Shown: positions 19,255 to 22,610 of the stretch, piece by piece | Numbering within the stretch: the stretch's first letter is position 1 | How the letters are laid out: every line of letters begins with the position of its first letter | DNA from: Hyalangium gracile | Lineage (GTDB): Bacteria; Myxococcota; Myxococcia; Myxococcales; Myxococcaceae | Length of the DNA stretch: 64,000 nucleotides | Direction: 5' to 3' | NCBI RefSeq assembly: GCF_020103725.1 | Contig: NZ_JAHXBG010000026.1 | Coordinates: forward strand, 62,001 to 126,000 | Program-made: the position numbers and the translations under genes | Notes under the pieces: model-generated | Databases searched by the model: none | Told to the model about the DNA's origin: nothing | What the model saw: only the letters and a program-made list of their open reading frames with translations

Positions 19255-20583
19255 ATGCGCGAGTTCCGTGTTGGTCGACGTTGGGGCCTGCGAGCCGTGT
19301 GCGCGGCGGTGCTGCTGGGAGCTGGCGTGCTGAGCTGCGGCACGGAGGAGGAGCTGCCGCCTCCGGGGGATCAGGTGGCCCCCAGCCGCATCGACATCGT
19401 CGGAGGCATCACCGCCGGGGCCACCTTCTCCGGGCAGACGACGCTGGAGGCCGTCGCCGAGGACGAGTCCGGGCAGGTGGCCAAGGTGACGTTCTTCGTG
19501 TCCGGCGTGCCGGCGTGCACGGATGCAACGGCCAAGAGCTCGGGCTCCAGGTTCTCGTGCGACTGGGACTCTCGCAACACTCCGGAAGGTAACCATCAGC
19601 TCGTCGCCACGGCGCAGGATGCCGCGGGCAACCTCACCAGCTCCACGCCGATGCCTTTCAGCGTCGGCGTGAACGTGCCGCCCATCCTCTCCGCCGTGAG
19701 CGCGAACCCCACCGCCGTCAATGAGGGGCAGAACGTGGCCCTCTCGGTGACGGCGACGGATCAGGCGGGAGATGTGCTCACGTACACCTGGACGCAGGTG
19801 ACTCCCGCCAGCCCCCTGGGCACCTTCACCAACGAAAACTCCGCGACGCCCACGTGGAAGGCGCCGCTGCTGTCCACGACGACGACGTTCACGCTGCGGG
19901 TGAAGGTCACCGACAACCGGGGCGGGACGTCTCAGCGCACGGTGGATCTGCAGGTGGCGAACGTGGCGTCCGCGAACCGGGCTCCCACGGTGGATGCCGC
20001 CATCTCCGCGCCGGGGACGGTGGTGGCCGGGAAGAACGCGGACCTGTCGATCGGGGCCACCGATCCGGATGGGGATCCGCTGACCTACTCGTGGAGGACG
20101 AGCCCCACGGCCAACGTGGGGACCTTCACCGGCACGAGCACGGCGGCCACGGGCTGGCGCTCTCCGGAGATCTCCCAGGACACCAGCTACACCCTGCAGG
20201 TCACCGTGTCCGACGGCGTGGCCTCCGTCACCCGCTCCGTCAGCGTGAGGGCCACGGTGCCCCGGTACTCCACGGACGTTCAAGCCATCTGGAACGACAA
20301 GTGCACCCGGTGCCACAGCGGCACCAGTCCCAGTGGGCGGCTGGATCTGTCGGCGTCGAGGTCCTACTCCAGCCTGATCAACGGAGCGACCAACAGCACG
20401 AGCTGCAGCACGCTCAGGCGCGTGGCGGCCACCCGGCCCGACAGCTCGCTGCTGATCCGGAAGATTACCGGGACGAGCTGTGGCGGCCGGATGCCGCAGG
20501 ATGACACGCAGTACTTCGCCAACAACCCGGGCCTGGTGACGCTCATTCGCTCCTGGATCCTCGCGAACGCGCTCAACAACTGA
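19255..20583 (+). CDS. Surface lipoprotein with Ig/PKD-like repeats and one haem c site
   Basis: The 442-residue protein has a strong ribosome site (GGGGAGGAG) and a lipobox ending at about Cys24 (LLGAGVLSC). It has three beta-sandwich repeats of cadherin/PKD type: about 40-140, an Ig-like domain with NVPPILSAVSANPT, and NRAPTVDAAISAPG near 240. The C-terminal 100 residues contain CTRCH followed by SGTSPSGRLDLS and a GRMPQ motif before the end. This is the pattern of planctomycete-type cytochrome c domains in which the Met of GRMP is the distal ligand. The protein is likely an outer-membrane electron carrier or haem-binding adhesin. It is transcribed divergently from the M20 peptidase with 248 bases between them. 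Confidence 0.8.
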   Translation: MREFRVGRRWGLRAVCAAVLLGAGVLSCGTEEELPPPGDQVAPSRIDIVGGITAGATFSGQTTLEAVAEDESGQVAKVTFFVSGVPACTDATAKSSGSRFSCDWDSRNTPEGNHQLVATAQDAAGNLTSSTPMPFSVGVNVPPILSAVSANPTAVNEGQNVALSVTATDQAGDVLTYTWTQVTPASPLGTFTNENSATPTWKAPLLSTTTTFTLRVKVTDNRGGTSQRTVDLQVANVASANRAPTVDAAISAPGTVVAGKNADLSIGATDPDGDPLTYSWRTSPTANVGTFTGTSTAATGWRSPEISQDTSYTLQVTVSDGVASVTRSVSVRATVPRYSTDVQAIWNDKCTRCHSGTSPSGRLDLSASRSYSSLINGATNSTSCSTLRRVAATRPDSSLLIRKITGTSCGGRMPQDDTQYFANNPGLVTLIRSWILANALNN

Positions 20584-20591
20584 GCGCCGCG

Positions 20592-20969
20592 TCAGCGCAC
20601 CGTGGGGACGCGGCAGGCCGCGTGCCCCAGGATCTGGTCTCCCTCGCGGGTGGAGGTGGGTGTTGGCACCCATCCCCCCGCCAGCCGGGCATCCAGCATC
20701 TCATCCGCCGTTGGCTTGTGGTCCCACACGGAGACCCCGTTCACGCCGCCCAGTCAGGTGGTGTCGAACACCAGGAACACCTCCCGCCAGGGGAGGACCA
20801 CGTCGTGCGTGAACTCGTCCTGGATGACGACGTCCGCCACGTCGCTCGGCGGCGTCTGCGCGAAGCCCCACCGGATGACGTCCTGGAGGATCGTCAGGTT
20901 CGCCAGCTCGGCCTTCAGTGCCGCCAGCCGCTCCGATGAGAGCCCCGCGCGGTCGATCAGCGTGGACAT
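20592..20969 (-). CDS. Small gene interrupted in frame by TGA (possible selenoprotein or nonsense mutant)
   Basis: An ATG at 20969, with GGAG 4 bases upstream and 9 bases after the acyl-CoA synthetase stop, opens a 71-codon frame ending VFLVFDTT-TGA at 20754-20756. The same frame continues for 53 more codons (LGGVNGVSVWDHKPTADE onward) with about 87 percent G/C third positions, to a TGA at 20592-20594. Conceptual length is 125 residues. The downstream part reads like normal protein, so the inner TGA is either a point mutation, a sequencing error or a recoded selenocysteine. A short hairpin with a GGTCT loop starts 6 bases past the TGA. The protein family is not recognised and no CxxU redox motif is present. 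Confidence 0.6.
20713..20747 (-). promoter_or_regulatory. SECIS-like hairpin just downstream of the in-frame TGA
   Basis: On the coding strand, counting from the base after the TGA, GGC (7-9) and GUG (10-12) can pair with GCC (39-41) and CAC (34-36). Inside these, ACGG (14-17) pairs with CCGU (23-26) around a 5-base loop GGUCU (18-22). The bacterial formate-dehydrogenase SECIS of E. coli has GGUCU in its apical loop at nearly the same distance (19-23). The stem here is short and GC-rich sequence folds easily, so this is only suggestive. Confidence 0.3.
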
Positions 20970-20978
20970 GGCTCCAGC

Positions 20979-22610
20979 CTACTCCTGTGGGTGCTTCAGC
21001 AGGTAGTCGCCGTACTCCTCGCGCAGCTTCGTCTTCAGGAACTTGCCCGTGGACGTGCGCGGGATCTGCTGCACGAAGAGGTACGCGTCCGGCAGCCAGT
21101 AGCTGGCGAAGTGCTTCTCCAGGTGCGCCGCCAGCTCCTCCTTCGTCGCGGACTTGCCTTGCTTGAACACCACCGCCGCCAGCGGGCGCTCGTCCCACTT
21201 CGGGTGCCGCCCCGCGAACACCGCCGCCTCGAGCACCGCCGGGTGCGCCATCAGCGCGTTCTCCAGCGCCACCGAGCTGATCCACTCTCCGCCCGACTTG
21301 ATGACATCCTTGGAGCGATCGGTGATTCGCAGGTACCCGTCGGGATCGATCGTGACGACGTCTCCCGTCTTGAACCAGCCGTCCTTCGTGAAGCGGTCCT
21401 TGCCCTCGTCGCCGTAGTACGACGAGGCCACCCACGGCCCGCGCACCTCCAACTCGCCCATCGTCGAGCCGTCCCAGGGGAGCACCTGTCCCGTGTCGCT
21501 CACGTGGCGCTGCTCGACGAAGGGCAGCGGGAAGCCCTGCGAGGCGCGCACCGACAGCTTCGTCGCGTCGTCCGCGTCCGCGTGGTGCCGCTTGAGCCGC
21601 GCGAGCGTCCCCACCGGGTTGAGCTCGCTCATGCCCCACGCGTGCGTCACCACCAGGCCATGCCGCTTCCGGAAGCCGTCGATCATCGCCGGCGGCGCCG
21701 CCGATCCACCGATGGCCATGGTGCGCATCGCGCTGAGATCCCACCGCTTCGGCTCTTGATCCAGCAGCGCCAGGATGCCGATCCAGATGGTGGGCACTCC
21801 GCCCGCGACGGTCACCCGCTCCTGGGCCATCAGATCCAGCAGCGAGGTGGGATCCAGGTGCGGCCCGGGCATGACGATCTTCGCGCCCGTGGCCACCGCG
21901 TCGTAGGGCAGGCCCCAGGCCGCCGCGTGGAACATGGGCACCACGGGCAGCACCGTGTCCGCCTCGCACACGCCCAGCACGTCCGCCGTGCATGAGGCCA
22001 GCGTGTGCAGCACCGTGGAGCGGTGGCTGAAGAGGACGCCCTTGGGGTTGCCGGTGGTGCCGGAGGTGTAGCAGAGCATCGCCGCGGTGCGCTCCTCCAA
22101 CTCCGGGAAGTCGAAGCTGTCCGCCTCGGGCGCCAGCAGCTGCTCGTAGTCGAGCCGGCCGCTCGGGACAGGCCCGTCATCCGGGACGACGATGACGCGC
22201 TCGATGGAGGGCACCGCGCCCGCGAACTTCTCGAACAGCGGCAGCAGCGAGCGGTCCACCACGATGACCCGGTCCTCGGCGTGACGGGCGATGTAGCCGA
22301 GGTCATTCGGGTGCAGGCGCAGGTTGAGCGTGTGGAGCACCGCGCCCATGGCCGGCACGGCGAAGTAGAGCTCCAGGTGCTGGTGGTGGTTCCAGCAGAG
22401 CGAGGCGACGCGGTCCCCCGGCTTCACCCCGAGCCGCTTCAGCGCCCCCGCGAGCCGACACGCGCGGCGATAGAAGTCCGCGTAGGTATAGCGGTGGAGC
22501 GAGCGGTCCGGTCGCCGGCTGACGATCTCGGAGCGTCCATAGAAGGTCCGCGCCCTCTCCAGGAAGTGGGTGAGGGTGAGCGGGAAATCCATCATCCGTC
22601 CGGCGAGCAT
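20979..22610 (-). CDS. AMP-forming fatty acyl-CoA synthetase
   Basis: The 543-residue protein has the ANL-superfamily P-loop YTSGTTGNPKG, the A5 motif HAWGMSELNPVG and the A7/A8 region KDGWFKTGDVVTIDPDGY with ITDRSKDVIKSGGEWIS. A C-terminal TSTGKFLK supplies the catalytic Lys. It should activate a medium- or long-chain acid with ATP and CoA; its MDFPLTLTHFLERA N-terminus resembles AlkK/DmdB-like ligases, so the chain length is uncertain. The start at 22610 has GGGGGAC 7 bases upstream; two nearby ATGs (22595 and 22592) are possible alternatives. It is probably co-transcribed with the small TGA-interrupted gene that follows. Confidence 0.88.
   Translation of the reverse strand: MLAGRMMDFPLTLTHFLERARTFYGRSEIVSRRPDRSLHRYTYADFYRRACRLAGALKRLGVKPGDRVASLCWNHHQHLELYFAVPAMGAVLHTLNLRLHPNDLGYIARHAEDRVIVVDRSLLPLFEKFAGAVPSIERVIVVPDDGPVPSGRLDYEQLLAPEADSFDFPELEERTAAMLCYTSGTTGNPKGVLFSHRSTVLHTLASCTADVLGVCEADTVLPVVPMFHAAAWGLPYDAVATGAKIVMPGPHLDPTSLLDLMAQERVTVAGGVPTIWIGILALLDQEPKRWDLSAMRTMAIGGSAAPPAMIDGFRKRHGLVVTHAWGMSELNPVGTLARLKRHHADADDATKLSVRASQGFPLPFVEQRHVSDTGQVLPWDGSTMGELEVRGPWVASSYYGDEGKDRFTKDGWFKTGDVVTIDPDGYLRITDRSKDVIKSGGEWISSVALENALMAHPAVLEAAVFAGRHPKWDERPLAAVVFKQGKSATKEELAAHLEKHFASYWLPDAYLFVQQIPRTSTGKFLKTKLREEYGDYLLKHPQE

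Follow-up and report, generated by a model that had tools for sequence, protein, structure and literature searches.

The window, that is, the whole stretch of 64,000 nucleotides that was analysed, carries on its minus strand a frame that starts with ATG at 20969-20967, runs through 71 codons to a TGA at 20756-20754, and continues without a shift through 53 further codons to a second TGA at 20594-20592. Third codon positions are 97% G+C upstream of the inner TGA and 87% G+C downstream. A preliminary description had reported this in-frame TGA followed by coding-type sequence, with 71 and 53 codons and a third-position G+C content of about 87% after the TGA, and the architecture is real. No signal peptide or membrane segment was evident in the protein when it was read by eye. 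The features of the locus are listed below.

20592..20969, minus strand: putative selenoprotein gene from the ATG to the terminal TGA, 125 residues with selenocysteine (Sec) at position 72, based on homologues with the same architecture and on dN/dS
20754..20756, minus strand: putative Sec-UGA codon, residue 72, with TGA at the aligned position in every homologue found (56 genomes and locus L007)
20720..20753, minus strand: putative bSECIS region, +1 to +34, based on synonymous constraint, the position of GGUC, and a GGUCU loop also present in selD
20613..20615, minus strand: conserved C-terminal Cys119, a possible resolving thiol, conserved to 90% or more in alignment A2
20979..22610, minus strand: AMP-binding acyl-CoA synthetase-like gene, start approximate, whose stop precedes the selenoprotein ATG by 9 nt

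Co-transcription of the acyl-CoA synthetase-like gene and the selenoprotein gene is possible. This linkage is kept only in the Hyalangium-type relatives L002 and L009 and in L010, so the synthetase is not a general functional link. In genera other than the close relatives the flanking genes are unrelated, and this lack of a conserved neighbourhood gives no hint to function. On the other side, a convergent gene (19255-20583, plus strand) ends 8 nt from the selenoprotein stop; it probably encodes a lipoprotein, in which beta-type domains are repeated and a CxxCH motif (CTRCH) lies at the C-terminus.

A search of 195 Myxococcota genomes with the read-through protein found homologues in 56 of them, belonging to 14 genera and four family-level groups, each with exactly one in-frame TGA. 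A profile built from 26 members and run against 193 Myxococcota genomes gave the same picture, with TGA at the site. When all loci were realigned, TGA occupied the position of codon 72 in 57 of 57 genomes (the 56 plus the locus L007 from a MAG), and a sense codon occurred there in none. The motif around the site is DTT-U-LGG, and in the alignment of 26 members Sec72, L73, and G74 never vary. The residues flanking the UGA on both sides are among the most conserved, and no insertion or deletion falls right at the site. The check across myxobacterial homologues proposed at the outset thus came out in favour of selenocysteine, as none of them had a sense codon at the site, whether for Trp, Arg, or another residue. 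Judged from these alignments, the in-frame TGA is conserved far beyond chance because it is kept in 57 genomes.

The median pairwise dN/dS was about 0.32 before the TGA and about 0.25 after it. Both values are well below 1, indicating that purifying selection acts on both halves and that one continuous protein is under selection. These results bear on the idea that the TGA arose recently in the window's genome, by nonsense mutation, pseudogene formation, or sequencing error, leaving the downstream frame as a dead remnant. An in-frame TGA does look like a nonsense mutation, and a few relatives (L067, L057) appear decayed. However, the same TGA is present in 57 separate assemblies, single-contig ones included, and selection is purifying on both sides of it. 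A private mutation or sequence error, which had been kept as a live alternative, is excluded by a TGA common to all homologues, and the broader idea of a dead remnant is almost certainly wrong.

It was also considered whether the inner TGA is a real stop between two translationally coupled genes, one for a protein of 71 aa and the other for a separate protein of 53 aa. Conserved stop codons can occur inside operons, and short coupled genes exist. The codons adjoining the TGA (DTT, LGG) are nevertheless among the most conserved, the frame never shifts, and there is no conserved ATG or TTG start at this point. Moreover, these genes end in TGA 48 times, in TAG 6 times, and in TAA once, yet neither TAA nor TAG ever replaces the inner TGA, which was found in 55 of 55 distinct sequences. 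Under ordinary stop usage, and with phylogeny ignored, the probability of such uniformity is 0.0006. Two coupled genes are therefore extremely improbable, and a single protein read through the UGA is preferred.

Several loci departed from the general pattern. Two members, L057 (G130) and L067 (G148), keep the UGA, but residues that are otherwise conserved are altered in them or the C-terminus is scrambled, which suggests that they decayed recently or were misassembled. In the divergent L065 and L066, a Cys lies about two residues further on than Cys119. A TGA-free "homologue" in G125:C3 was rejected as matching by chance; read by eye, it seems to lie antisense to a gene of the rRNA methyltransferase type. 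A second TGA-free match, in G147:C668, was also rejected, as it is limited to the C-terminal part, lacks a recognisable Sec region, and looks like a decayed fragment. This fragment (G147:C668:6312-6413, L085) reads ADELLDHRLARGWVATPRSTV; that genome also has an intact copy, and the fragment is a probable decayed paralogue. Within the window's genus the distribution is patchy, with the gene in 2 of 7 genomes (G000, G100) and not in G095-G099. Four of these five gene-less genomes still have selA, and G095 has neither the gene nor selA.

No homologue was found in viral contigs, plasmids, or phages. A Cys-containing homologue, which had been sought as the second half of a Sec/Cys pair that would support the reading, was not found by the profile in the 193 Myxococcota genomes, nor in plasmids and phages. 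The scan of genome contigs used peptides specific to the query; it missed even other gene-carrying myxobacteria and is of little value for other phyla.

In the window's genome, selA (E 2.7e-145), selB, and selD are present, together with a tRNA-Sec scoring 71.6 bits (cut-off 47), so the check for sel genes, with selC counted as the tRNA-Sec gene, found the complete set. The selD gene itself carries an in-frame UGA (G000:C7:46327-47256, L077; motif GUAAK). The genes for SelA, SelB, tRNA-Sec, and SelD lie on four contigs (C30, C6, C5, and C7, respectively), with no single obvious Sec cluster. Across the genomes, selA was present in 55 of the 56 that carry the gene versus 95 of the 139 others (Fisher p 1e-6, without correction for phylogeny). 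The one gene-carrying genome lacking selA, G020, is 61% complete and does have a tRNA-Sec. A search of the window's genome for a formate dehydrogenase of the Sec type found none. SelD in 12 sampled genomes was a mix of UGA-containing and UGA-free forms. In G087, G116, G118, G133, G070, G111, and G155 selD has no UGA, which means that SelD cannot be why these seven genomes keep the Sec machinery. The myxobacterial family could be one of the reasons.

The RNA that follows the UGA is also constrained. As the preliminary description had stated, GGUCU lies at +18 to +22 after the TGA (20736-20732). When every stretch of four codons in the gene was compared, synonymous constraint was strongest at codons 78-81, at +16 to +27 after the UGA, where Ala78 is GCG in 27 of 27 cases, Val79 is GTC in 54 of 55, Ser80 is TCC in 50 of 50, and Val81 is GTG in 50 of 52. 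GGUC starts at +18 in 52 of the 55 members, 49 of which have GGUCU; at control TGA sites (n=3000), GGUC occurred at +17 to +19 (three registers) in 1.2%. The same loop is found in selD of the window's genome, CGCA[GGUCU]UGCG, about 32 nt after the UGA, and the UGA-type selD genes of gene-carrying genomes have GGUCU, GGUCC, or CGUGC loops.

Two mutually exclusive hairpins can be drawn in this region. Hairpin 1, ACGG[GGUCU]CCGU (20740-20728), places GGUCU in the loop of a 4-bp stem (ACGG/CCGU; 20740-20737 with 20731-20728). Hairpin 2, GGUCUC[CGUGU]GGGACC (20736-20720), has a 6-bp stem and is more stable. The published bSECIS model has a loop of the GGUCU type within 16-37 nt of the UGA and a stem of -7.5 kcal/mol (PMC13188914). 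Both hairpins fit its rules for loop and spacing, though most of the stems alone are weaker than -7.5 kcal/mol. Hairpin 1, with a GGUCU or GGUC loop, fits the window and is perfect in the distant L055, L063, L065, and L066, whose stem sequences differ, but the two genera sampled best, g6 and g19, include many members in which it is broken. For hairpin 2, pairing holds in 94% of cells and L056 shows one compensatory change, but it fails in distant members. The covariation is thus thin, consisting of the change in L056 for hairpin 2 and of four distant members with a remodelled hairpin 1.

A hairpin meeting the loop and spacing rules was present in 54 of 55 members versus about 22% of control TGA sites under this loose bSECIS filter. 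The folding energy of the 51-nt region was no better than that of shuffles (z +1.5), and it was not exceptional for selD either. The early caution that the stem is weak and that GC-rich DNA folds readily was therefore justified. Of the GGUCU-loop hairpin proposed at that stage, the nucleotides proved to be conserved, but the hairpin itself is kept in only part of the relatives and competes with hairpin 2. As far as comparison of the sequences can tell, there is good support for where the element lies and for its sequence, but not for its structure, which may be either of the two candidate hairpins.

These observations also bear on programmed readthrough, in which the UGA would be decoded as Trp, Arg, or another ordinary amino acid, independently of selenium. 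In bacteria, a UGA is leaky when the next base is C, and the codon after the UGA is CTG or CTC in all members. If an ordinary amino acid were inserted, however, the UGA would be replaceable by a sense codon, and this replacement never occurs. The presence of the gene also tracks selA, and the loop of selD agrees with the GGUC(U) element that is under constraint. Readthrough of this kind is very improbable. The locus very probably encodes a selenoprotein with selenocysteine at the UGA, because a single ancestral frame runs through a UGA that is kept family-wide in genomes with the Sec machinery.

The family itself appears to be undescribed, while Sec-UGA decoding as such is well known. None of the 26 members scored above chance level against Pfam or NCBIfam release 20, and a search of PDB sequences gave no match, in line with the initial impression that the protein family is unrecognised. 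The NCBIfam model for the DF selenoprotein family had no match in the window's genome. A 2026 catalogue lists 119 prokaryotic selenoprotein families (PMC13188914), including the deep-Sep families (PMC12013277) and those of NCBIfam, and no DTTULGG-like motif was found among them (PMC13188914). The deep-Sep paper does not mention myxobacteria (PMC12013277), and a text search of the literature for myxobacterial selenoproteins or the motif returned nothing relevant. The original suggestion of a possible undescribed selenoprotein is thus supported by the homologues, the machinery, and the lack of a family match.

An AlphaFold2 model from seven sequences (pLDDT 79, pTM 0.74) predicts a small alpha/beta protein in which strands 64-71 and 75-82 are joined by a tight turn that holds Sec72, and Cys119 lies on the low-confidence last strand. 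Searches with the model by Foldseek and VIA-align gave no match with E <0.001, a best Z of 5.0, and nothing coherent. As to a thioredoxin fold, there is no CxxU/UxxC-type motif at the Sec, the predicted order of elements does not look thioredoxin-like, and the best PDB alignments have Z ≤5, although the lack of a match is no proof either way. That the family is confined to Myxococcota, exists in the Sec form only, and has a fold unrelated to known selenoproteins is a possible but tentative reading.

The following mechanism may be proposed. SelB and Sec-tRNA would read the UGA as selenocysteine, and an mRNA element within the next ~34 nt, marked by the constrained GGUC(U), would aid the decoding. 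Sec72 would most likely be the catalytic nucleophile of a redox reaction, Cys119 may be the resolving thiol, and the conserved QDExxHD segment may belong to the active site. As is generally known, selenocysteine in bacteria nearly always carries out redox chemistry in an active site (PMC13188914). For this reason, and solely from the presence of Sec and Cys, our best guess is that the protein is a small oxidoreductase using Sec72, possibly together with Cys119.

Standard gene calling stops at the UGA and loses the second half of the protein, including the conserved Cys119. The presence of the family in dozens of myxobacterial genomes would add a selenium-dependent protein to these well-studied predatory and social bacteria. 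Should it truly have no Cys form, it would lend itself well to studying what makes selenium necessary in place of sulfur, and the aligned SECIS regions would be useful for finding what SelB recognises in Myxococcota.

Compared with known systems, the myxobacterial family shares with FdhF-type and SelD selenoproteins the in-frame UGA, the complete Sec machinery, and the loop sequence GGUCU within 16-37 nt of the UGA. It differs from them in having no recognised domain, no CxxU/UxxC motif, and no Cys homologue found, and in that the register of the hairpin is not uniform. Most selenoprotein families have Cys homologues, whereas the profile search of Myxococcota found none for this one. In being small, domain-poor, and taxon-restricted, the family resembles the catalogued hypothetical proteins DG, DW, and DF.
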